13,397 nucleotides of DNA from Nanoarchaeota archaeon (GTDB lineage Archaea > EX4484-52 > LFW-46): contig JAHILE010000056.1 of the NCBI GenBank assembly GCA_018897155.1, positions 1-13,397 on the forward strand. The letters run 5' to 3'. Position 1 is the first letter of the stretch; every line of letters starts with the position of its first letter. The notes under the pieces were generated by a model. It saw nothing but the letters and a program-made list of their open reading frames with translations. It did not search any database and was not told the DNA's origin. Below, piece by piece: positions 132 to 10,117 of the stretch. A program made the translations under genes and the position numbers.

Positions 132-2576
132 CTAAATAATTACTTTAATCTCCTTATCATATACAACTTTTTTTACGCTATGCATCTGGACCAAATCGCG
201 CTCTATTGGCTTGAATTTCTCAGGCATTGTCAACTCTTTGACTTCTGCTTTTAATGATTGTCCTGCATCTTTTTTCGCTTTCCATATCGCGCTGTTAAGT
301 TCAATAATATCTGCGGTTGAGAAAGAAACCTGCGTTGCCGCTTTTGTCGGCTCCGGGAATTTTTCTGCGTGTATGTCGCCTTCTGCAAGTTCGCTGTAAA
401 TCTTATCTGTGATAAACGGCACAATCGGCGCAAGCAATTTCATTGATTCGAAAAGTACGTGATGCAGCGTGTAAAGCGCGGCGTTTCTTTCTTTTTCAGT
501 ATATGCGCCCTTTTCATTATACGCGCGATTCTTAACCATCTCAAGATAATGTGATGAAAATATTTCCCAGACAAAGTTCTTGATTCGCATCGCAGGATTA
601 TGAAAGTCGTATTCTTCATAGCTCTTTTTTGTAGATTCGATTAGCGCGTTAAGTTCGCCCAAAATCCAGTAATCAATAGGCTGCAGCTCGGAATCTTTCA
701 ATTTTGCTTTTGGAAATGACGAAATGAAGCGGCTCGCATTCCAGAGCTTTATCAGGAATTTGTTTCCGGATTCTATCCGCGGAAACGAGCACATGATGTC
801 TGTGGAGTGGATGTTGCCTTCAAGCGCGCACCACAGCCTGAATGACTCTGCGCCGTATTTCTCAATGACTTCCTGCGGGTTTATGACATTGCCAAGGGAT
901 TTTGACATTTTATTGCCTTTCTCATCAGTTACGTGGTAATGTATCCATACATCGCGGAAAATTGGCTCGCCTAAAAGCTGGTGGCATCGCAGAAGTGTGT
1001 AATATAGCCATGTTCGGACAATTTCGCGTCCCTGCGGCCTGATTGTGACTGGCTTGTACTTTGCGAAAAACTTCGGCTTGTCGGTATAGTGCATGATGTA
1101 AAGCGGCGAGATTGAGGAGTCAAACCACGTGTCAAAGACGCGCGTCTCCCCAGCAAATTCCTTTGAATCGCATTTGGGGTTAGGGCACTTTTGTACCGGA
1201 GCAGCGTCCTTCCACGGCCGGTAATACGGGCCCTTTTCAGGCACAATAGTTTCTCCGCATTTTTTGCAATACCAGAGCGGGATTTCAGTAGCATAATACC
1301 TGCGCCTTGACACTGCCCAGTCCATTGAGATAGCGTCAATCCAGTCAAGCAGAATCTGCCTGCTTTGAGGGGCATAAAAATTGAGTTTCATAGCGATTTT
1401 TCGCATGTCTTCCTTGAACTCAAGCTGGCGGATGTATATTTCTTTCATCGCCACGAATTCTATCGGCGTCTTTGAGCGCTCGCAAATCGGCGTCCTGTGG
1501 CTTGAATTTATCTGCTTTTCAATCAGGTTTTTTGCCTGCATTTCCTCAATTATTTTTTTGCGCGCCTCCTTCACTTTCAGCCCTGCGAGAAAGCCAGCGT
1601 TTTCATTCATTTTGCCGTCAATGCCTATAGAATATATCGGCTCAAGCTTTTCATCGCGAAAAAATCTTATGTCGTTGGAATCGCCGAAAGAGCACATCAT
1701 AACAAGCCCGCTTCCTGCATCAAGTTTCGCATACGGGTGAGCTTTTATCGGCACTTCTTTTCCATAAATCGGCGTTATTGCGGTCTTGCCAACAAGGTCT
1801 TTGTAGCGCGCATCCTCCGGGTTGAAAATAACCATCGCGCACGAGCAGATTAATTCGGGTCGCGTGGTTGCGATTATTATCTCCTCTCCGGTTTCCTTGA
1901 CTTTGAATTTCACATAATTAAAAGTTATTTCCTCTTCCTTGTAGTCGATTTCTGAGTCCGCTATTGTTGTCCTGCATTGCGGGCAGTAGTTGTTGACTTT
2001 TTTGTCCTCGTATACAAGACCCTTTTTCCAGATGTCGATAAATGTCGCCTGTGTAAGCGCGCGGTATTCCGGCGAATCCGTATAATATACGTCGCCGATA
2101 TTGTTTCGAGCTTTGCTCGAAAGCTTCGAGCCATCGGCGAGATGATTTCCGAGTTCCCATGAGCAGAACGAATGCCCGAGTTTGTAGAATGTATCAACTG
2201 ATGCCATGCTGAACTCTTCGAGAAGCTTTTCGCAGTATTCTATGAATTTTTCGCGGCCGACAACAGTTGGAATCACGTTGAATTTCTTTTCTGCCGCCAC
2301 TTCTATCGGAAGTCCGTTGCGGTCAAGCCCTAGCGGAAATATGACCTCGTGTCCGGTCATGCGTTTAAAACGCGCGAACATATCCATCAGCGTGTAAACT
2401 GTTGCGTGGCCTATGTGCACCGGTGCGTTGATGTATGGCGGCGGCGTGTCTATTGAGAAAACCGGCTTTTTGGTGTTTTCGTTGAAAGCGTAGCGCTTTG
2501 TCTCTCGCCATTTCTTTCGAATAGGCTCTTCCATTTCCTTTGACCATGTCTTCTCTTTCAGAGGCATAAAATTCAC
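132..2576 (-). CDS. valS: Valyl-tRNA synthetase, archaeal type
   Basis: This class Ia synthetase charges tRNA-Val in the cytoplasm. The 814 residues show the HIGH signature at 54-57 within a PPPYINAPVHIGHA context, and KMSKS at 556-560. Cysteine pairs suited to zinc occur at C198/C201, C437/C440 and C464/C469. The CP1 editing-domain TTRPE motif is at 237-241. DTWFDSS (482-488) and RPQGREIVRTW (513-523) are typical of ValS rather than IleS. No C-terminal coiled-coil extension follows, as in archaeal ValS. Residues about 143-162 (ELGNHLADG...NNIGD) are an in-frame extra segment between the SF.SW and YYTDSPEYR motifs, encoded by a palindrome at 2092-2140. The first Met is taken as the start; Met4 is also possible. 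The gene is divergent from the 2730 gene. Confidence 0.95.
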   Translation of the reverse strand: MNFMPLKEKTWSKEMEEPIRKKWRETKRYAFNENTKKPVFSIDTPPPYINAPVHIGHATVYTLMDMFARFKRMTGHEVIFPLGLDRNGLPIEVAAEKKFNVIPTVVGREKFIEYCEKLLEEFSMASVDTFYKLGHSFCSWELGNHLADGSKLSSKARNNIGDVYYTDSPEYRALTQATFIDIWKKGLVYEDKKVNNYCPQCRTTIADSEIDYKEEEITFNYVKFKVKETGEEIIIATTRPELICSCAMVIFNPEDARYKDLVGKTAITPIYGKEVPIKAHPYAKLDAGSGLVMMCSFGDSNDIRFFRDEKLEPIYSIGIDGKMNENAGFLAGLKVKEARKKIIEEMQAKNLIEKQINSSHRTPICERSKTPIEFVAMKEIYIRQLEFKEDMRKIAMKLNFYAPQSRQILLDWIDAISMDWAVSRRRYYATEIPLWYCKKCGETIVPEKGPYYRPWKDAAPVQKCPNPKCDSKEFAGETRVFDTWFDSSISPLYIMHYTDKPKFFAKYKPVTIRPQGREIVRTWLYYTLLRCHQLLGEPIFRDVWIHYHVTDEKGNKMSKSLGNVINPQEVIEKYGAESFRLWCALEGNIHSTDIMCSFPRIESGNKFLIKLWNASRFISSFPKAKLKDSELQPIDYWILGELNALIESTKKSYEEYDFHNPAMRIKNFVWEIFSSHYLEMVKNRAYNEKGAYTEKERNAALYTLHHVLFESMKLLAPIVPFITDKIYSELAEGDIHAEKFPEPTKAATQVSFSTADIIELNSAIWKAKKDAGQSLKAEVKELTMPEKFKPIERDLVQMHSVKKVVYDKEIKVII
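2092..2140. repeat. In-frame palindromic insert inside valS
   Basis: A 49-bp nested palindrome. The outer arms are TCGCCGAT (2092-2099) and ATCGGCGA (2133-2140). The inner hairpin is TTTCGAGC (2104-2111), loop TTT, GCTCGAAA (2115-2122). A third arm, TTCGAGC (2125-2131), can pair with the same GCTCGAA, so two alternative hairpins compete. It encodes valS residues about 146-162, where family members normally have only a short link. The layout TTTC.AG-loop-CT.GAAA followed by GCTT is like that of the insert in the Nudix gene, but sequence identity is only partial. Confidence 0.7.
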
Positions 2577-2627
2577 AGAACAAATATAGAATCAATCTGC
2601 AAATTATTGATGGGAAAATGATTTAAA

Positions 2628-2635
2628 GCTATAAA
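2628..2635 (-). promoter_or_regulatory. Candidate TATA box for valS
   Basis: On the minus strand TTTATAGC is preceded by purine/GC-rich bases. Initiation about 25 bases downstream, near 2605, would give a leader of about 30 bases before the valS ATG. No clear Shine-Dalgarno is seen. The same bases read TATAAAAG on the plus strand, so orientation is uncertain. Confidence 0.35.
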
Positions 2636-2668
2636 AGCGGATTCCCCCCTCAATTCGCGAGCTATTAA

Positions 2669-2718
2669 TGTTTGATTATTCCGTATTCAGTGATTACCTA
2701 TATATACATAATCAAACA
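2669..2718. promoter_or_regulatory. 10-bp inverted repeat bracketing a TATA box
   Basis: Perfect arms TGTTTGATTA (2669-2678) and TAATCAAACA (2709-2718) flank the TATA box of the downstream gene, with 30 bases between them. Transcription should start after the right arm, so this is not an RNA stem. A DNA-bound operator is the simplest reading. The binding factor is unknown. Confidence 0.5.
2699..2706 (+). promoter_or_regulatory. TATA box, predicted leaderless transcript
   Basis: TATATATA is centred 27-28 bases before the ATG at 2730. The usual archaeal TATA-to-start spacing puts the 5' end at or within one or two bases of the start codon, and no Shine-Dalgarno is present. Confidence 0.6.
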
Positions 2719-2729
2719 AAATAAAAATC

Positions 2730-3893
2730 ATGTCTGATTTTGTCAAAGTTCTCGCGGCAGGCGTAACGCTCATCATTTTCGCGCTCCTTATATCCGGCTC
2801 TTCTATGTTTGAAGAAGAGGGAATTGCTTCTAACAACATAACTTTGTTCTCCCAAAATATTGTCGGGCAAATCGGTTCTGTGCAGGAGACTTTCAGGCGC
2901 ATTTCTTTTGGCTCGTTTTCAGTCGGGCAGACTCTAGGTGAAGAAACCACAAACAATCTAAGCGACGCAATAATAGAAAATGGATGGTTCAGGGAGCATT
3001 CCGAGTCATTCCAGTTTTCGGGAAGCGGCGCGGTTGGCGCGTATATGACATTTACAGTAGCTGATATGAACAAGTACGGCAGCCTTCAGATTTATTTTAA
3101 CGACAGAAAAGTTTATGATAACATCACTGCAAAGGGAGATTACCGAATTCAGATAACTTTACCGGAAGCGACAAACACTATTGAGATAAAAGCGACATCA
3201 TCTGCTGAGAAATTCTGGGCTCCGACAACGTACATTCTAAAAGACATAAAGCTTGTTGTGAAGCGATATGGTGAGCAGGAGTACGTAGTGCCGTTTACAG
3301 TTTATGATTATGAAGCTGTCGGATGGAGCACAGGCCGCCTCTTATTCGGAGTTGACGATGCGACAATTGCTGGCGATCTTGCAGTCAATGTGAATGGGCA
3401 GGAAGTGTACCGCGACAGGCCTATTTCAAGGAGCACAATACACCAAAAGGATTTCACGCGCGAAAAAGCCCAGATACATGCAGGCGAAAATACACTTCGT
3501 TTCAGGACTGAGAAAGATGCAACATACGATTTGTCAAATGTCGAGCTTTTGATGTTCTTCTTTACCGGAAGCGAAAGCGTTACAAAGAAAATCTATTTCA
3601 GCATGGGCGACGGCCAGCTCGCCCTCTACAAGGCGCAAAATTCGACAGGCAGGATAACATTTGATGTTGACGCGGTTTATCTTGACCGCGGAATCACAGT
3701 TATGGTCAACAACAAGCCGATTGAGCTGTCAAAAGTTGAAAGCGAAGGAGGCTTCAAAGAGAATTATGTCAATTTCGACCTCAAGGACCTGCGCTCCGGA
3801 AGAAACACAATAGAATTCAAGACGCGCGGCTCGTACAGCTTATCAAATATAAGGGTGCTTTCAATCGTGCCTGTGGATGAAAACGATCCGTAG
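2730..3893 (+). CDS. Membrane-anchored protein with three beta-rich repeats
   Basis: I do not recognise a named family. The 387-residue product begins with one hydrophobic segment (about 8-23, LAAGVTLIIFALLISG) that looks like an uncleaved anchor. The rest would lie outside the cell. Three similar blocks of about 80-95 residues follow (about 99-179, 187-278, 287-380). Each has an early strand (AYMTFTV, GRLLFGV, GRITFDV), then a hydrophobic strand ending in a V-N/F-N turn (IYFNDRKVY, VNVNGQEVY, VMVNNKPIE), then G.NT(I/L).F(K/R)T or NTIEIKA, then Y.L(S/K)(N/D)(V/I).L. This suggests tandem beta-sandwich domains. There is no sortase-like or archaeosortase-like tail. The gene has its own promoter and converges on the endonuclease gene with 19 bases between stops. 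A surface or envelope role is inference. Confidence 0.8.
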   Translation: MSDFVKVLAAGVTLIIFALLISGSSMFEEEGIASNNITLFSQNIVGQIGSVQETFRRISFGSFSVGQTLGEETTNNLSDAIIENGWFREHSESFQFSGSGAVGAYMTFTVADMNKYGSLQIYFNDRKVYDNITAKGDYRIQITLPEATNTIEIKATSSAEKFWAPTTYILKDIKLVVKRYGEQEYVVPFTVYDYEAVGWSTGRLLFGVDDATIAGDLAVNVNGQEVYRDRPISRSTIHQKDFTREKAQIHAGENTLRFRTEKDATYDLSNVELLMFFFTGSESVTKKIYFSMGDGQLALYKAQNSTGRITFDVDAVYLDRGITVMVNNKPIELSKVESEGGFKENYVNFDLKDLRSGRNTIEFKTRGSYSLSNIRVLSIVPVDENDP

Positions 3894-3912
3894 GCAGTAT
3901 AAATATGATTAA

Positions 3913-4827
3913 TTAAGTTTTTGCGTCTTCTTTAAGTGCTTCTTTCATCTTCAGCGCGTCTTCTTCAAGTTTCGGGCTTTCGCATATGATTGTCATATCC
4001 AGCTTGCGCCGCAGAATTTCGCGCGCCAATGACGCAAATTGCGGGTTTCCGATAGGTTCGTGGCTGCGCTCGTTTCCCTTGCCTTCTGAAACAATCGAGT
4101 AATTGATGCCCGAGAAATGGCAGTGAAGATGAGGAGTGAAAACGCGGCAGAGCGTAGTATCCGCGATTGAATGACGATGAGGAGCGACATCGCGATAAGT
4201 CGTCGCATCCGCGATGGAGCGACGATGTTTGTATTCTTTCGCTGCGTCAAGCACTTTTCCGTAATCTATATGCCCTGCCTGCCTTGCGTAGATGTGCGCG
4301 AAATCGATAACTGGCGCGCATTCTTTTATGTCTCTGCACAGCTCAATTATTTCATCAAGCGTGCCGAATTGGCTCGACTTTCCGCTTGTCTCAAGGCCAA
4401 GAATTATGTTCCAGCTTTCTTTTCTGATTTTTTCAGCAAGTTCGATGCATGCGTCGCGTATCATCCCGATTGAAGCCGCAGCATTTTTCCCGTAAAATCC
4501 CGCATGCACCACAACTATTTTCGCGCCCATTGCTTCGCCGCGCTCGAGCGAATCAAGAACGCGCTGTTTGCTTTCTGCAATTGTCTGCGCTTTTTCGCTT
4601 GCAAGATTGATGAAATACGGCGCGTGCACCGAAAGGTCGATTCCGTGCTCAATTGCCGCAGTGCCGACTTTTTTTGCGGTTTCATTCGACATATGGACGC
4701 CGCGCACGAATTCGACTTCCAACGCCTTGAGACCGAGTTCTCGGACGCGTGAGATTCCGGAAATAGTGTCGCGTTTTGTTGCAGAGATTGGAACTCCGGC
4801 AGTGCCGAATTTTACTGTCGCGCCCAT
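3913..4827 (-). CDS. nfo: Endonuclease IV-like AP endonuclease (TIM barrel)
   Basis: Endonuclease IV cleaves DNA at abasic sites in base excision repair, using a metal cluster in a TIM barrel. Visible family motifs are VHAPYFINL (H68), VVHAGFYG (H108), GLETSGKSSQFGTLDE (E146), PVIDFAHIYAR (D175, H178), HLHCHFSGI (233-241), GNERSHEPI (H256) and ICESP (E283). These match the metal ligands in order. The oddity is residues 201-232: two 16-residue repeats (HRRSIADATTYRDVAP and HRHSIADTTLCRVFTP) placed directly before the HLHCHFSGI strand. Removing them gives a normal KEYK-HLHCHFSGI join and a normal length of about 272. Other members of the xylose isomerase-like TIM-barrel family are the alternative, but the motif set favours Nfo. 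A TATA-like box at 4851-4858 predicts a leaderless message. Confidence 0.88.
   Translation of the reverse strand: MGATVKFGTAGVPISATKRDTISGISRVRELGLKALEVEFVRGVHMSNETAKKVGTAAIEHGIDLSVHAPYFINLASEKAQTIAESKQRVLDSLERGEAMGAKIVVVHAGFYGKNAAASIGMIRDACIELAEKIRKESWNIILGLETSGKSSQFGTLDEIIELCRDIKECAPVIDFAHIYARQAGHIDYGKVLDAAKEYKHRRSIADATTYRDVAPHRHSIADTTLCRVFTPHLHCHFSGINYSIVSEGKGNERSHEPIGNPQFASLAREILRRKLDMTIICESPKLEEDALKMKEALKEDAKT
4132..4227 (-). repeat. Two 48-bp in-frame tandem units inside nfo
   Basis: Unit 1 is 4180-4227 and unit 2 is 4132-4179. Both start CATCGTC and end CTCCT on the coding strand and share ATCGCGGAT in the middle. The length is exactly 16 codons each, so the frame is kept. The bases after unit 2 (CATCTTCAC, encoding HLH) resemble the unit start. 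Within unit 1, CATCGCG (4188-4194) can pair with CGCGATG (4210-4216), and TCGTCGC (4200-4206) with GCGACGA (4219-4225). These pairings interlock. Confidence 0.85.
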
Positions 4828-4850
4828 GGGAAAGAATTGGATGGCTTAGA

Positions 4851-4858
4851 ATAAATAG
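4851..4858 (-). promoter_or_regulatory. Candidate TATA box for nfo
   Basis: CTATTTAT on the minus strand is centred about 27 bases before the ATG, predicting a leaderless start. It lies in the 50-base gap after the upstream winged-helix gene, so nfo may be transcribed separately from it. Confidence 0.45.
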
Positions 4859-4877
4859 CCGTCGCCTAAATCCTGCG

Positions 4878-5327
4878 CTACAGAAGTTTTTTATAGTAAA
4901 GAGGCATTACTTCGCGGTCAACTGTGAATTTATACATCGTGCTATTGCTTGTGTTTCGGTACTCTTTTTTTAAGTCAGGCAGTACGCCCATATAGTATAA
5001 TAAAGGTAGGTTGACTTGCGATATTAAATTTGGAAAAGAAACTTTTGCGGCCATAGCTATACGATCCGATGATGTGTATTCAGTTTCATGGCCGTGTTTG
5101 TATATGCACTTAAGGATACTCAATTGCCTTTGTGATACATTTCCTGTGAAAAGCTTCCATATGCGCTGAAAGCTATCTTCACCCGCATTCAGTTGCTTTG
5201 CAATCTCTTTGAGATCTATGTCCTCCATACGTGTAAGGATATCATCGCGCTTTTCAGGAGTCATTTTTTCTACATTATATGTTTCCAAAAGATATTTTTT
5301 AAATTTTTCATCAAGTACGTTTTTCAT
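4878..5327 (-). CDS. Small protein, predicted winged-helix regulator
   Basis: The family is not recognised. The 149-residue product is charged at the N-terminus (about 1-45, helical). From about 66 it has LSILKCIYKHGHETEYTSSDRIA followed by FPNLISQVNLPLLYYMGVL, then a basic turn and TMYKFTVDREVMPLYY. That order (helix, helix, recognition-like helix, beta hairpin) is what a winged helix gives, so DNA binding is a reasonable but unconfirmed guess. It has no signal peptide or membrane segment. It is transcribed away from dnaJ across a 96-base gap, with a perfect AT-rich palindrome (5342-5355) at the right distance to be its TATA box. It lies 50 bases upstream of nfo on the same strand. Confidence 0.65.
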   Translation of the reverse strand: MKNVLDEKFKKYLLETYNVEKMTPEKRDDILTRMEDIDLKEIAKQLNAGEDSFQRIWKLFTGNVSQRQLSILKCIYKHGHETEYTSSDRIAMAAKVSFPNLISQVNLPLLYYMGVLPDLKKEYRNTSNSTMYKFTVDREVMPLYYKKLL

Positions 5328-5341
5328 AATCTGTGCTTCGA

Positions 5342-5355
5342 ATTAAATATTTAAT
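5342..5355. promoter_or_regulatory. Palindromic AT box in the dnaJ divergent promoter
   Basis: ATTAAATATTTAAT is a perfect 14-bp palindrome centred about 21-22 bases before the ATG of the winged-helix gene, so it can serve as that gene's TATA box and might be a symmetric operator. For dnaJ, a TATA-like TTTTAAAA lies near 5392-5399, about 28 bases before its ATG. Both messages would then be leaderless or nearly so. Confidence 0.4.
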
Positions 5356-5423
5356 AATGTTTTGATTTGCCAATATCTGGATTTCGCAACTCTTTTAAAA
5401 CTAATTGTTTATATTATTTATCT

Positions 5424-6593
5424 ATGCCACAAAAGCGCGACTATTACGAAGTTCTGGGCGTCAAACGCGGCGCAACAGATGAGGAGATAAAGAAAGCATA
5501 CCGCATACACGCAAGAAAATTTCACCCGGATGTAAATCCCGGAAACAAGACTGCTGAAGAGAGTTTCAAGGAAGTCAACGAGGCTTTTGAAGTCCTGAAA
5601 GACCCGCAGAAACGCACGCAGTACGACCAGTTCGGCCACGCTCCCTTTGCAGGCGGCGGTGCAGGAGCCGGTGCTGGAGGATTCAGGGGATTTGGCGGAG
5701 GCGGTGCCGGCTTTGAGAATTTTGAGGACATTTTTTCAAGTTTCGGTTTTGGCGACATATTTGACGTTTTCACAGGCGGACGAAAAAGGGGCGGAAGGCG
5801 CGGCGGTCCAGTGGATGGCGCTGACCTTCGATTTGACCTGAATATTACGCTTGACGAGGCTTTCAGCGGCGCCGTCAAAAAAATCAATATTCCGCGATTC
5901 GAAAAATGCCCGACATGCAAAGGCTCCGGTGTAAAGCCGGGAACAACGCTTAAAGACTGTTCAAAATGCGGCGGACGCGGAGAAGTCCAGGCAGTGCAGC
6001 GGACGCCGTTCGGCCAGTTTGTCAGTATCAGGGCATGCGACAAATGTGGTGGAGAAGGAAAGGTTGCGGAGGCGCTATGCCCTGAATGCGCCGGCGCGAA
6101 ACGGGTGGAGAAGACGCGCACAATTGACATAAAAATCCCTGCAGGAGTAGGCACTGGCTCGCATCTAAGGGTTGAAGGAATGGGCGAGGAAGGCACAAAC
6201 GGCGGATATTCCGGCGACCTTTATATTATTCTGCATGTTGATTCACATCCTATTTTTGACAGGTACGAGAACGACATTTACGCAAAGACATCTATAAGCA
6301 TACCGCAGGCTGTTTTTGGCGCAGAAGTCGAAGTTCCGGCAATCAAAGGCAAGGTCAAGCTTCGCATTCCCCAAGGAACGCAGAGCCATACGATTTTCAG
6401 GGTTAAGGGCCAGGGAATGCCGGATATCAGGACTGGCAAGCGCGGCGACCTGCTTATCCGCATTATCGTAAACATTCCGGCAAAAGTGTCAGGAAAAGAA
6501 AAGGAGATTCTTGAAGAATACGCCAAAATTGCAAAAGGAGAGGGCGCGAAAGTGGAAAAGGGTTTCTTTGACCGATTCAAAGAGTATATTTGA
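5424..6593 (+). CDS. dnaJ: Chaperone DnaJ (Hsp40, type I)
   Basis: DnaJ delivers unfolded clients to DnaK and stimulates its ATPase in the cytoplasm. The 389 residues show all type I parts: a J domain (5-70, HPD at 34-36), a Gly/Phe-rich stretch (about 72-128), four zinc-binding repeats (C162/C165, C179/C182, C205/C208, C219/C222), and the C-terminal substrate-binding and dimerisation part to 389. The first three repeats fit CxxCxGxG; the fourth is CPECAGAK, with the final Gly replaced. An in-frame Met 19 codons upstream exists, but MPQKRDYYEVLG is the family N-terminus, so 5424 is chosen. No dnaK or grpE is in this window. DnaJ is often considered bacterial in origin when found in archaea. 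Confidence 0.96.
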   Translation: MPQKRDYYEVLGVKRGATDEEIKKAYRIHARKFHPDVNPGNKTAEESFKEVNEAFEVLKDPQKRTQYDQFGHAPFAGGGAGAGAGGFRGFGGGGAGFENFEDIFSSFGFGDIFDVFTGGRKRGGRRGGPVDGADLRFDLNITLDEAFSGAVKKINIPRFEKCPTCKGSGVKPGTTLKDCSKCGGRGEVQAVQRTPFGQFVSIRACDKCGGEGKVAEALCPECAGAKRVEKTRTIDIKIPAGVGTGSHLRVEGMGEEGTNGGYSGDLYIILHVDSHPIFDRYENDIYAKTSISIPQAVFGAEVEVPAIKGKVKLRIPQGTQSHTIFRVKGQGMPDIRTGKRGDLLIRIIVNIPAKVSGKEKEILEEYAKIAKGEGAKVEKGFFDRFKEYI

Positions 6594-6602
6594 GGTCGAA
6601 AT

Positions 6603-7037
6603 ATGCCAAGACTGCTTATATATGTTATGACTTCCGATAAAGGTAAAGCGCCGAAAATTGAAGACGACATTTGTATCTTATGTGGATGCAAAAAGAGAAG
6701 CATAGAAAAGCATGCAGAAGTCGGCGATTGGATTATAGGTATAGGTGGCAAAAAACTCTGTAATGGGATATACGACAGAAAGCTGATTTATGCCATGAAA
6801 GTCGAAAGTTGTAACCCACCCACATCAAAACATTTTACCCATTATGGTGATAAGGCAATTTCTATCAATGATTTTAATGAGATTACTGAAGTAAAAAGAA
6901 CAAAATATATCCGTAATAACCCCGATACATACCAAAGATTTGATAAGCTTATGAACAGCCAGCCACGAGGCAAGATTGGCTCTTATTGTTGTAGAATACC
7001 CTGCAAATATGGCTTTGAAGAAAAAGAGGCATTATGA
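6603..7037 (+). CDS. Nmad2-like protein (nucleotide modification associated)
   Basis: The 144-residue protein matches the shape I know for nucleotide modification associated domain 2: an N-terminal strand (LLIYVMTSDKGKAP), a Cys pair (CILCGCKKR), then EVGDWIIGIGGKK and KLIYAMKVES, followed by a conserved histidine region (KHFTHYGD). Nmad2 proteins are predicted to act with DNA-base modification systems in phages and mobile elements; their activity is not established. The C-terminus (GKIGSYCCRIPCKYGF) adds three cysteines. A Shine-Dalgarno-like GAGGT overlaps the dnaJ stop codon (6592-6596), six bases before the ATG, so it is probably co-transcribed with dnaJ. Its base composition is visibly more AT-rich than dnaJ, suggesting later acquisition. 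The family call rests on remembered motifs. Confidence 0.62.
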   Translation: MPRLLIYVMTSDKGKAPKIEDDICILCGCKKRSIEKHAEVGDWIIGIGGKKLCNGIYDRKLIYAMKVESCNPPTSKHFTHYGDKAISINDFNEITEVKRTKYIRNNPDTYQRFDKLMNSQPRGKIGSYCCRIPCKYGFEEKEAL

Positions 7038-7061
7038 GATTTAGGAGCAAAGCCATCATTC

Positions 7062-7068
7062 TATAAAT
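7062..7068 (+). promoter_or_regulatory. Candidate TATA box for the MntA/HepT pair
   Basis: TATAAAT lies in the 80-base gap after the Nmad2-like gene. Initiation near 7091 would give a leader of about 27 bases containing GGTGAT (7108-7113), which complements the usual archaeal 16S 3' end and sits four bases before the ATG. Confidence 0.45.
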
Positions 7069-7117
7069 CTTTATTAACAATCCGCGCTAACATAATCTAG
7101 TAAATGTGGTGATTGTT

Positions 7118-7519
7118 ATGCGCAAAATTCTCCTTGAAAAAATCAAAAAAGCTTTCAGAACAGAGAAAAACGTATTATTTGCTTACGTTTACGGAAGCTT
7201 TGGAAGAGGGGAAAAGGATTACAGCGACATTGATTTAGCAGTATTTCTCAAGAAAATACCGAAAAACAGCGCGCCTTATGAAGCAAAACTCGGACAAAAG
7301 CTTGAAAAAGAAACAGGAAAGCCGGTTGAAGTAAGGATTATGAATTCAATGCCGCTGCTTTTGAAATCGCGCGTATTCAAGGAAGGAAAAACAGTATTTT
7401 CAAGAAATAAGAAGGCGCGCGTCAGTTTTGAAACCGCATTAATGAGCCGTTATCTTGATTTTTCATATATTATGCAAGAATACGACCAAAGGAGGCTTGA
7501 ACGGTATGGCATTGGATAA
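7118..7519 (+). CDS. mntA: MNT-type nucleotidyltransferase antitoxin
   Basis: This is a minimal nucleotidyltransferase of the type that pairs with HEPN toxins. Characterised MntA proteins neutralise HepT by transferring AMP to a tyrosine near its active site. In the 133 residues, GSFGRG (26-31) and SDIDLAV (D37, D39) form the canonical motif. The third acidic position appears to be Glu71 (PVEVRI) rather than the common Asp. The ATG at 7118 is preferred over GTG codons at 7106 and 7109 because the GGTGAT ribosome-binding site would otherwise lie inside the gene. The 3' end overlaps hepT by 14 bases, a strong sign of translational coupling. Confidence 0.88.
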   Translation: MRKILLEKIKKAFRTEKNVLFAYVYGSFGRGEKDYSDIDLAVFLKKIPKNSAPYEAKLGQKLEKETGKPVEVRIMNSMPLLLKSRVFKEGKTVFSRNKKARVSFETALMSRYLDFSYIMQEYDQRRLERYGIG

Positions 7520-7934
7520 ATCGCTTGTAAATCTTAGAATCGATGTAATAGAAAGGAATCTGAAAGAAATAAAAAGCATTCTTGATGAAGGCGAGGAAAA
7601 ATTCCTTAAAACCTATAGAACCACATTGGCCGGAAGGCATGCGCTTCTTGAGTCTATTGAGGCTTGTATTGACATTGGAAATCATATAATCGCAAGCATT
7701 GGACTAAGGAGACCCGAGGATTACAAAGACGTATTTTCTATCTTAGAGGAAAACCGCGTTATTTCAAGAAATCTTTCGGAACGATTGCAAAAGATGGCAA
7801 GTTTCAGGAATCTTTTAGTGCATTATTACACGAAAGTTGATGATAAGGCTGTTTTTTCCATTATGCGCGAGGATATCAAAGACATCACAGAGTTTGTGAG
7901 AACAATACTGAAGTTTATGGCTGAAAAAGCGTAA
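7506..7934 (+). CDS. hepT: HEPN-domain toxin, HepT (DUF86) family
   Basis: HEPN toxins of this family are RNases whose active site is RX4HXY. Here R101, H106 and Y108 in RNLLVHYY fit exactly; Y108 is the position that partner nucleotidyltransferases AMPylate in studied systems. The 142-residue product is mostly helical, as expected, with YRTTLAGRHALLESIEACIDIGNHII matching the usual first helical motif. The ATG at 7506 follows an AAAGGAGG sequence (7488-7495) and gives the family N-terminus (MALDKSLVNLRIDVIERNLKEI). It overlaps mntA and converges on pyrI with nine bases between stops. Such pairs behave as plasmid or island stabilisers or defence modules; the role here is unproven. Confidence 0.9.
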   Translation: MALDKSLVNLRIDVIERNLKEIKSILDEGEEKFLKTYRTTLAGRHALLESIEACIDIGNHIIASIGLRRPEDYKDVFSILEENRVISRNLSERLQKMASFRNLLVHYYTKVDDKAVFSIMREDIKDITEFVRTILKFMAEKA

Positions 7935-7943
7935 TTGTTCTAA

Positions 7944-8381
7944 TTAAACCCTCATCTCCTGCTCACAATAAAGGCACTTTAGGCGCGCAGGCCTTTTTTC
8001 AATAACACTGAATTCGCTTGCCACGTCAGGTTCCCTGTTTGAGACGCAAGCGGGATTATTGCATTTTGCAATCCCTTTCAGGCTTTTCGGAAGGTCTGCT
8101 TTTTCCTTTTTCATCACCTCAAAATCGCGGATAGTGACAATAGTTGCATCAGGGCTCACAAGCGCGACATGGCTGTATTCCGGCGGCGCCAAGTATTTGT
8201 CTTCAATTCTTAAGACATCCTTTTTTCCCATGCGCGTGCTGGATACATTCACCGCAAGTATGACTGTCCTTCCTTCGATTCCTTTTAGCGCGCGCAAGAC
8301 TTCTGCACCTCGTCCGGCAACTATATGGTCAATCACTGTGCCGTTCTTTATTTTTTCAACGCGGAGTGTCTTTTCATTCAT
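7944..8381 (-). CDS. pyrI: Aspartate carbamoyltransferase regulatory chain
   Basis: PyrI is the allosteric subunit of aspartate transcarbamoylase, binding nucleotides and holding catalytic trimers together through a zinc site. The four zinc ligands are C107 and C112 (CNNPAC) and C136 and C139 (CLYC). The N-terminal nucleotide-binding half contains NGTVIDHI (13-20) and a central RIEDKYL strand region. At 145 residues it is the normal size. Its ATG shares one base with the pyrB stop (TAATG), so the two are translated from one message with pyrB first, the common archaeal order. Confidence 0.96.
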   Translation of the reverse strand: MNEKTLRVEKIKNGTVIDHIVAGRGAEVLRALKGIEGRTVILAVNVSSTRMGKKDVLRIEDKYLAPPEYSHVALVSPDATIVTIRDFEVMKKEKADLPKSLKGIAKCNNPACVSNREPDVASEFSVIEKRPARLKCLYCEQEMRV

Positions 8382-9307
8382 TATTTCACCGAACCCAATA
8401 GAAGCGCAATCAGCGCCATTCTTACAGGAAGCCCATATGCAGCCTGTTTGAAATAGACTGCCCGCGGGTCATTATCTACCTCGTACGCAATTTCGTCCAC
8501 GCGCGGCAGGGGGTGCATCAATATCATGTCCTTTTTTCCAAGAGCCATTATTTTATTGTCAATTATGTTGCGGCCCTTTACATCGAAATATTCTTTTTCC
8601 GAGCCGAAGCGCTCTTTCTGTATCCGCGTTGCATAAAGCACATCAAGCTCTGGCACTACTTTTTCAATTTCTTCATGTTCAAAAACATCAATATTCTTTA
8701 CAGCAAGCTGGTTTTGTACATATTCCGGCATTTTCAGCTGACTGGGCGAAATGCAGTAAATCTTGACTTTCGGGAAAAGCGATAGCGCATATGCAAGCGA
8801 GTGTACTGTTCGTCCGTATTTTAAGTCGCCGAAAAGGCCGATTTTAAGCCCTTCTATGGTTCCCTTTTCCTTCAATATCGTGAACATGTCAAGCAATGTC
8901 TGGGTCGGGTGCTGGTGGCCTCCGTCGCCTCCGTTTATCACAGGAGCATCCGATGCGTTGGCAGCAACCCGTGCCGCGCCTTCTGAAGGATGGCGCATGG
9001 CGATTATGTCGGAATAAGAAGCAGCCATGCGTATTGTGTCTGAGAGCACCTCACCCTTTTTGGCTGATGTGACTTGAGAGTCAGCGAATCCTATGACGCT
9101 TCCGCCAAGCCTATACATCGCGCTTTCAAAAGACATGCGCGTCCTTGTGCTGGGCTCAAAAAACAGGTTTGCAAGGATTCTGCCTTTGCAGATGTCAGAA
9201 CTTTGCTTAGCCAAAGGAAGCATCTTTTCTGAAACAGAAAATATCTTGTCTAGGTCCACTTTAGTCAAATCTTCAATAGAAATTATGTCGCGTCCTTCCA
9301 GGTTCAT
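8381..9307 (-). CDS. pyrB: Aspartate carbamoyltransferase catalytic chain
   Basis: PyrB joins carbamoyl phosphate to aspartate, the committed step of pyrimidine synthesis, in the cytoplasm. With the start at the ATG ending at 9307 the product is 308 residues, the usual length. Active-site motifs are STRTR (53-57), the SAKKGE loop (81-86), HPSEG (106-110), HPTQT (133-137) and HPLPR (265-269). An in-frame TTG three codons upstream is a less likely start. A TATA-like TTAAATAG (9335-9342, minus strand) is centred about 32 bases upstream, giving a leader of a few bases. The promoter lies only about 25 bases from the MITE. Confidence 0.97.
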   Translation of the reverse strand: MNLEGRDIISIEDLTKVDLDKIFSVSEKMLPLAKQSSDICKGRILANLFFEPSTRTRMSFESAMYRLGGSVIGFADSQVTSAKKGEVLSDTIRMAASYSDIIAMRHPSEGAARVAANASDAPVINGGDGGHQHPTQTLLDMFTILKEKGTIEGLKIGLFGDLKYGRTVHSLAYALSLFPKVKIYCISPSQLKMPEYVQNQLAVKNIDVFEHEEIEKVVPELDVLYATRIQKERFGSEKEYFDVKGRNIIDNKIMALGKKDMILMHPLPRVDEIAYEVDNDPRAVYFKQAAYGLPVRMALIALLLGSVK

Positions 9308-9334
9308 ACATATCAAAAATTATTGGACTGAAAT

Positions 9335-9342
9335 CTATTTAA
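9335..9342 (-). promoter_or_regulatory. Candidate TATA box for pyrB-pyrI
   Basis: TTAAATAG preceded by CTTTCGC on the minus strand. Expected initiation near 9312 leaves almost no leader before the pyrB ATG. No attenuator or other leader structure is possible in so short a leader. Confidence 0.5.
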
Positions 9343-9357
9343 GCGAAAGAATCACAA

Positions 9358-9366
9358 CTAAATATC
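9358..9366. repeat. Left copy of 9-bp target-site duplication
   Basis: CTAAATATC sits directly outside the left end of the 144-bp element and is repeated exactly at 9511-9519. Confidence 0.8.
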
Positions 9367-9399
9367 GGTGCTGTTGCACAATTCGCAGAGCACATACAC

Positions 9400-9477
9400 C
9401 TTAGCGTTATCTGCAAAGCTAAAACCGAGTCATTCAAAATTCTTGCGTTCAACGCTAAGATTTGAGCAAGAATTTTG
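9400..9477. other. Interlocked inverted repeats (possible pseudoknot)
   Basis: CTTAGCGTT (9400-9408) is complementary to AACGCTAAG (9451-9459). CAAAATTCTTGC (9435-9446) is complementary to GCAAGAATTTTG (9466-9477). The second arm of the first pair lies in the loop of the second pair, so if both form in one RNA the fold is an H-type pseudoknot with loops of 26, 4 and 6 bases. The short last loop makes simultaneous pairing borderline; an either/or switch is the alternative. Confidence 0.6.
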
Positions 9478-9480
9478 GCA

Positions 9481-9488
9481 TATATAAA
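9481..9488 (+). promoter_or_regulatory. TATA box carried by the MITE
   Basis: TATATAAA near the right end of the element points outward. Initiation near 9510-9511 would give a leader of about 17 bases to the ATG of the Nudix gene at 9528. Confidence 0.45.
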
Positions 9489-9510
9489 TTAAATCTTATG
9501 CAACAGCGCC

Positions 9511-9519
9511 CTAAATATC
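9511..9519. repeat. Right copy of 9-bp target-site duplication
   Basis: CTAAATATC directly outside the right end of the MITE, identical to 9358-9366. Confidence 0.8.
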
Positions 9520-9527
9520 TGATTTCT

Positions 9528-10023
9528 ATGACAAAACCCATAAAATCAGTGCCAAATCTCTCAAAAACGGATTTTTTAAAGGTACTGAAAATGGTTCCTA
9601 CCATAGTTGTTGAAGTGATTGTTAAAGATGAAAACGGCATATTGCTTGGAAAACGCAATACCGAGCCTTTTCGCGGTATGTCATGAAACCTTCGGTTTCA
9701 AGCTTTTCAGCCTCTATCGAGTCTGAAAATGGCACCTTACAGGCGGATTTGTGCATTACAATGAGAAACTGTCTGATGCTGTGAAGCGAGTGGCAAAACG
9801 TGAAGTAGGCGCCGACATAGAAATCGTAAAGATGCTTGGCGTCTACGAATACATAAACGACGACCCGCGCGGGCATATAATCGCGCTTGCGCATATTGTA
9901 AAGATTGCCGGTGGAAAAGCTGCGCCGACACCGGATAACACTGAACTGAAATATTTCAGACGCGCGCCAGATGATATGATTCCCTATCAGAAGAAGATTT
10001 TTAACGATGCGTTAAAAAGCTGA
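9528..10023 (+). pseudogene. Nudix hydrolase, broken by a 49-bp insert
   Basis: Nudix enzymes hydrolyse nucleoside diphosphates linked to another group. Joining 9528-9681 to 9731-10023 gives a clean 148-residue protein: VPTIVVEVIVKDENGILLGKRN, then EPFRGM-W-HLTGGF, then the Nudix box from G57 to about A79 (E63, R71, E76). The box lacks the first Glu of the REUXEE signature (RVAKREVGA), as in GDP-mannose mannosyl hydrolases, whose N-terminal pattern it also shares. In the actual sequence bases 9682-9730 interrupt the conserved Trp codon, bring a TGA two codons later and shift the frame by one. The downstream Met at 9751 would start after the essential Gly-Gly, so no active product is expected unless RNA or ribosome repair occurs. 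The rest of the gene is uncorrupted, so the break looks recent. Confidence 0.85.
9682..9730. repeat. 49-bp double-hairpin insert in the Nudix gene
   Basis: Hairpin one is GAAACC (9685-9690), TTC loop, GGTTTC (9694-9699). Hairpin two is TTTTCAG (9704-9710), 12-base loop, CTGAAAA (9723-9729). Exact removal restores the TGG codon, although a one-base ambiguity at the edges remains because T flanks both sides. AGCTTTTCAGC (9701-9711) is the exact reverse complement of 10061-10071 in the repeats after the gene, and the neighbouring ATTTTCAG and TGAAAC.GAA blocks also match in the same order. Confidence 0.85.
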
Positions 10024-10117
10024 GAACTCACGTAGTGAGTGAACAGATTTTCAGCGACGCGCTGAAAAGCTGAGAGTGAAACGAACAGATTTTCAGCGAT
10101 GCTATGAAAGCATAGCG
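9991..10117. repeat. Three tandem copies of the Nudix 3' end
   Basis: Copy 1 (about 9991-10025) is the coding end, KKIFNDALKS-stop. Copy 2 (10041-10075) would read EQIFSDALKS-stop and copy 3 (10083-10117) EQIFSDAMKA-stop; spacings are 50 and 42 bases. Copies 1 and 2 each form a 9-bp stem with a 3-base loop (9998-10018 and 10048-10068). Two base pairs differ between them and both partners changed in each case. Further hairpins are ACTCAC-GTA-GTGAGT (10026-10040) and GCTATG-AAAG-CATAGC (10101-10116). The array fills the gap to the pus10 stop and may end both convergent transcripts. Confidence 0.8.

Follow-up and report, generated by a model that had tools for sequence, protein, structure and literature searches.

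Small palindromic repeats inside protein-coding genes are known from several systems, and in-frame invasion of genes by such repeats has so far been documented mainly in bacteria, in Rickettsia and for the repetitive extragenic palindromic (REP) sequences. The Rickettsia palindromic elements (RPEs) occur in-frame in many unrelated genes and also outside genes, and REPs have intragenic copies in bacteria (PMC10969869, PMC3733652). REP, BIME and REPIN repeats are high-copy short hairpins with single-strand polarity that are paired or arrayed and occasionally intragenic (PMC3733652, PMC2817692). The window discussed here is a stretch of 13,397 nucleotides (nt) from an archaeon; it is contig 56 among the 62 that make up a 1.43 Mb genome (G000). 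An earlier note on this DNA had described four structured repeats, in valS, in nfo, in the interior of a Nudix gene and at its tail, and all four are present. The valS, Nudix-interior (minus strand) and Nudix-tail structures have the common layout that the note had assigned to them, TTT-stem-AAA followed by AGC(TT) and a second hairpin, and each has significant relatives, with best non-self matches in the genome at E 1.4e-6 for valS, 1.5e-7 for the Nudix interior and 1.4e-4 for the Nudix tail. All three belong to a single dispersed family of short, folded repeats, here called the P1/AGC family. Their parts are as follows.

2104..2145, plus strand: whole valS element, P1 hairpin plus AGCTT-CGAG-CCATCGG-CGAG-ATGA (H3 form), antisense to the gene
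2104..2122, plus strand: valS hairpin P1, TTTCGAGC-TTT-GCTCGAAA, from the sequence and the detector
9681..9729, minus strand: Nudix interior element, P1 hairpin of CTGAAAA type plus AGCTT-GAAACC-GAA-GGTTTC-ATGA (H4 form)
9462..9686, plus strand: Nudix N-terminal fragment, halted by the interior element, with no Pfam match alone
9733..10023, plus strand: Nudix C-terminal fragment, whose match to NUDIX PF00293 starts only at profile position 33
9998-10111, plus strand: whole Nudix tail, a member of the P1/AGC family
9998..10018, plus strand: Nudix tail P1a, TTTTTAACGATGCGTTAAAAA, from the alignment with the congener
10016..10050, plus strand: Nudix tail H2 hairpin a, AGCTGAGAACTCACGTAGTGAGTGAACAGAT, which holds the TGA stop of the gene (covariance model R2, E 5.7e-8)
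10048..10068, plus strand: Nudix tail P1b, TTTTCAGCG-ACG-CGCTGAAAA
10066..10092, plus strand: Nudix tail H2 hairpin b, AGCTGAGAG-TGAAA-CGAACAGAT (pattern and model R2, E 1.1e-7)
10090..10111, plus strand: third P1-like hairpin of the Nudix tail, decayed, TTTTCAGCGATGCTATGAAAGC, direct repeat D1

The archaeal elements resemble RPEs in being small palindromes that lie in-frame in unrelated genes and also outside genes. However, RPEs, which were compared by description, are about 100-150 nt long with a conserved sequence and peptide, whereas the archaeal units are about 40-60 nt long, have differing stems that covary, and reside in an archaeon. The elements are high-copy short hairpins with single-strand polarity, paired or arrayed, as are REPs, but their consensus is AAAGC..GATTT, they form branched three-way or four-way junctions with conserved mismatch collars, and their in-frame insertions are seen directly as indels. 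Like miniature inverted-repeat transposable elements (MITEs) they are short, non-coding and multi-copy, and their complete form has palindromic ends (AAAATCAT..ATGATTTT). Unlike MITEs they have variable arms, no target-site duplication that is consistent by eye and no parent transposon that could be identified. The best reading is that the elements work like RPE and REP elements but without the defining sequence features of either family. The earlier note had spoken of an archaeal counterpart of in-frame palindromic elements; the host is indeed archaeal, and no earlier archaeal description was found in the literature searched, the coverage of which was incomplete.

Each unit begins with the P1 hairpin (TTTT-stem-loop-stem-AAAA, with U-tract and A-tract ends) and continues with a second hairpin based on AGC..GAT. 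The second hairpin takes the H2 form (AGC-NN-AGA-stem-GAA-N'N'-GAT), the H3 form (AGCTT-CGAG-loop-CGAG-ATGA) or the H4 form (AGCTT-stem-ATGA). The loops of P1 fall into a short class (often C-GAA-G or C-AAA-G), a class with G.A plus CTC-GNNA-GAG, and a long class of about 16-17 nt. Hairpin loops of older units host nested newer units, and arrays are also common. Within a second family of the same order, complete units take the shape of a palindromic cloverleaf, AAAATCAT-arm-AAGCT..P1..AGCTT-arm-ATGATTTT. A de novo k-mer enrichment independently ranked the element linkers AAAAGCTTCGAG, AAAGCCGAGAGCG and GAGATGATTTT among the most over-represented words. As a separate observation, the loops of the H4 arms in genomes G012-G033 of family f7 carry CCTCCAA or CCACCAA followed by ACC or AC, which is a word like a Shine-Dalgarno (SD) sequence on the opposite strand; in the copies read no start codon lies at SD distance from it.

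The fold is supported by covariation. The NN and N'N' pairs of H2 covary (CG/CG, TG/CA, CT/AG, CA/TG, TT/AA) and flank an invariant AGA/GAA internal loop. Across 31 ungapped copies of H2 the pairing is kept in 94.5% of cells, and 44 cells are changed on both sides vs 12.2 in shuffles; controls in which the alignment was slid collapsed. For H4, with 34 copies from other genera, the pairing is kept in 99.1% of cells and the cells changed on both sides number 15, vs 4.3 when shuffled. An example is found in the window itself, where P1a of the Nudix tail has the sequence TTTTTAGCGATGCGCTAAAAA at the corresponding locus of a congener (L157), a compensatory A-T to G-C change on both arms despite the region being protein-coding. 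In this structure-conserved family the sequence of the stems varies between units and the pairing is kept. G-T (wobble) pairs are scarce, as they make up just 13 of the 79 non-Watson-Crick cells among copies defined by pattern, which equals the random share. This hints that the pairing is maintained at the level of DNA; the argument is weak, with a tRNA control of 11 stems.

The near-perfect, covarying arms and the commonness of tandem and nested copies would also be expected if no mobile element were involved and template switching at replication forks made palindromes locally and kept them perfect. Local switching does not create shared motifs, however, and hundreds of unrelated loci have the flanking motifs (AGC..GAT, AGCTT..ATGA and the AGA/GAA collar) in common; some of the dispersed copies are near-identical (for example, 48/48 nt between L031 and L058). 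We regard this origin as highly improbable.

The family is spread over the genome, as the earlier note had suggested. The genome of the window was compared with that of a congener, uncultured archaeon LFW-46 (G001), whose ValS is 81-88% identical, and with those of more distant archaea; every genome compared is a metagenome assembly. Loci were read in 816 kb without Ns of the genome of the window (57% of it) and in 953 kb (about 79%) of that of the congener, and elsewhere whole genomes were searched. The detectors are descriptors devised in the present analysis. The combined, or strict, detector found 109 loci in the genome of the window and 155 in the congener, with 1.2 expected. The single motif combinations exceed their shuffled counts for H2 (24 vs 1.6), H3 (22 vs 0) and H4 (66 vs 15.3). 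The H3 pattern was found 26 times in the genome of the window, 14 times in the congener and 3-4 times in each of three other genomes, while the reversed control gave 0. Chance palindromes are ruled out by these shuffles and reversed-pattern controls. Covariance-model counts are lower bounds, since the best 150 candidates per genome were scored. The H2 model gave at least 61 matches in the genome of the window and at least 75 in the congener, and elsewhere one match among the best 150 candidates per genome. The H4 model gave at least 7-55 matches in each genome of the second family and a small number in three others; in two families it gave no match among the best 150 candidates per genome. In all, five families of the order carry the P1/AGC family according to the models, so that matches extend across the genome and its relatives and are not limited to this locus.

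Across 84,980 species the H3 pattern has archaeal carriers, among them a Candidatus Aenigmatarchaeota, and only three bacterial matches and one viral match. The bacterial matches (Gammaproteobacteria, Chloroflexi and Steroidobacteraceae) and the match on a viral contig all lack P1 and are read as chance; the two proteobacterial matches are the same stretch. Rfam, searched up to E = 1, had no known structured RNA family that matched the elements. A resemblance of CUGAGAG..CGAA and AGAUGAU to hammerhead or kink-turn motifs was dropped because the key bases of the motifs are absent.

Insertions and empty sites can be compared directly in 289 kb of orthologous DNA aligned between the congeners, which holds 59 clean indels. 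Ten indels of 30-250 nt lie inside coding sequence with good flanking identity. Each of these is a hairpin element; nine belong to the P1/AGC family and one (L070/L170) to the family of the nfo repeats. All ten are multiples of three, as a modulo-three count on pairs of insertion and empty site shows, and all ten are open, which is an RPE-like keeping of the reading frame. An eleventh call, of 122 nt, actually falls after a stop codon and ahead of a start codon, and intergenic insertions are of any length. Unrelated coding genes are invaded on either strand, with the same site lacking the element in the congener. The valS element is a precise, open insertion of 42 nt that gives ValS 14 extra amino acids (NHLADGSKLSSKAR), and the site is empty at L157. 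Presence at some orthologous sites and absence at others implies gain or loss of the units as discrete blocks; the direction of insertion was judged from presence and absence in the two congeners alone.

The repeats had been described as in-frame. This is true of nfo (2 x 48 nt) and of valS. The Nudix interior is an exception: its insert is 49 nt long, is out of frame and has an in-frame TGA, so that the Nudix domain is split into two open reading frames (ORFs). The length of this insert was derived from the Nudix reading frame and the downstream sequence TGGCACC of the congener. The Nudix gene is likewise truncated in the congener and is therefore probably dispensable. This out-of-frame copy sits in a gene that had already degenerated, and intact conserved genes contain only stop-free inserts with lengths divisible by three. 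Because the Nudix insert breaks its gene, the in-frame pattern of the other insertions is best read as the result of selection after insertion.

It is likely that the elements are mobile, selfish palindromic repeats that moved as a folded single strand, were copied into new sites and were then filtered by selection. Mobility is suggested by the discrete presence and absence, the near-identical dispersed copies, the nesting and the lineage-specific abundance. In the mechanism that we propose, a mobilising enzyme would recognise a single strand, most likely of DNA, by its fold and not by a fixed sequence, as in the REP/IS200 systems. Copies would enter fresh sites, loops of older units among them, and selection would purge those that break genes, so that in-frame inserts, arrays between genes and hairpins serving as ribosome-binding leaders are left. 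Several findings weigh against such mobility. No mobilising enzyme was identified. Genes for Y1 transposases (Y1_Tnp) number three in the genome of the window and one in the congener, and no element of the family lies in the flanking DNA of those examined (one of the three genes was left out). Several element-bearing genomes, which are incomplete, have no Y1 transposase match. Inspection of insertion pairs by eye revealed no consistent target-site duplication, and within the 57% of the genome that was sampled a near-identical donor is rare for recent inserts. A reverse-transcribed element of the short interspersed nuclear element (SINE) type was rejected since reverse transcriptase (PF00078) is absent from both congeners; it is present in 1/41 genomes.

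It could be argued that the elements are a classical REP system, in which an IS200-type Y1 transposase, the REP-associated tyrosine transposase (RAYT), moves the hairpins as single-stranded DNA. The folded repeats are single-strand-specific and Y1_Tnp genes are present in both congeners, as such a system would have it. However, the Y1 proteins examined are IS200/IS605-like, a linkage to RAYT was not found in the flanks examined, and the consensus has neither a GTAG nor a CGTC tag. Y1_Tnp is found in 7/41 genomes and does not track the abundance of elements; genus g11 and several g9 genomes are rich in elements without a Y1_Tnp match, these genomes being incomplete. The RAYT hypothesis is not supported, and we consider it improbable.

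The elements are also found at gene starts. A long-loop P1 stands directly before the ATG that opens an ORF of 50 or more amino acids in 23/44 cases in the congener and 5/20 in the genome of the window, vs 0/29 and 1/55 for short-loop P1. The typical leader is ATGGAGAATGGTTAAAA-ATG, with a GGAG Shine-Dalgarno sequence in the loop about 10 nt upstream of the start, and examples that end exactly at the ATG are found in the congener at L147:2627 and L154:10160. In two cases one species has the element exactly filling the interval that precedes the ATG, and the other species lacks it. From their sequence and position, the elements appear to install ribosome-binding leaders. These leaders, the low frequency of SD-like motifs (only 70/344 conserved genes) and the many loci outside conserved genes would agree with a regulatory role as functional RNA structures, in which 5'-leader hairpins present the SD sequence, 3'-end or intergenic hairpins act in processing or termination, recombination spreads them and intragenic copies are by-products. 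Such a role does not account well for the invasion of unrelated coding genes on either strand with the site empty in the congener. Nor do most P1 hairpins adjoin a start codon; intermediates with G-U pairs are scarce, and there is no Rfam match. We therefore think it unlikely that RNA function explains the family, and favour mobile repeats.

The evidence supports a refined interpretation in which the units vary in sequence yet are conserved in structure, nest in one another, also occupy the starts and ends of genes and can disrupt genes. A bolder and rather doubtful proposal is that they are a new class of mobile element in archaea, set apart by its fold and not by sequence, with branched nested DNA hairpins, collars of sheared-G.A type and a structure-reading enzyme, which adds in-frame peptides and installs ribosome-binding leaders. 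If this were true, fold-defined elements would rewire translation initiation while they spread. An independent archaeal case would show in-frame invasion to be a general way for small repeats to extend essential proteins, ValS among them, with added peptides. Copies are numerous, two congeners offer clean empty sites and covariation is strong, which makes it possible to test what moves the elements, whether the substrate is DNA or RNA, and how SD leaders are acquired.

The nfo repeats do not resemble the other three in sequence, as the earlier note had recognized. They form a tandem array.

4124..4171, plus strand: nfo unit 1, family D, a 48-nt tandem repeat, in-frame and coding for 16 amino acids
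4172..4219, plus strand: nfo unit 2, family D, a 48-nt tandem repeat

Judged by sequence, these repeats are a dispersed family (family D) separate from the P1/AGC family, with the pattern GAGGAGYGA..stem..GAKYGACGAT (GAGGAGCGA..stem..GAGCGACGAT). Relatives occur in the genome of the window and in the congener, where they are found in about a dozen places, with 11 core copies in the sample. Nfo is about 22-30 amino acids longer here than in relatives, and in relatives across the order the alignment breaks at residues ~187-233.

Other features of the window were also observed. Beyond the valS stop, at 54-130, there is an inverted repeat TCCGAGCGC..GCGCTCGGA around CATCCGCCCGCTAAAGCGGGC, a putative end of IS200/IS605 type. 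An ORF with an Nmad2 nucleotide-modification-associated domain (PF18753) is located at 6603-7037, between dnaJ and the genes at 7106-7934, and is unaligned in the congener. The latter encode an MNT nucleotidyltransferase (Polbeta PF18765) followed by a HepT-like HEPN RNase (PF01934), probably an MNT-HEPN toxin-antitoxin pair. A 144-bp MITE is found at 9367-9510 (region 9358-9520), with inverted ends GGTGCTGTTGCACAA/TTATGCAACAGCGCC, presumably similar to IS6-type ends, and 9-bp direct repeats CTAAATATC on both sides. Six more copies of this MITE, with 94-96% identity, are present in the sampled genome.

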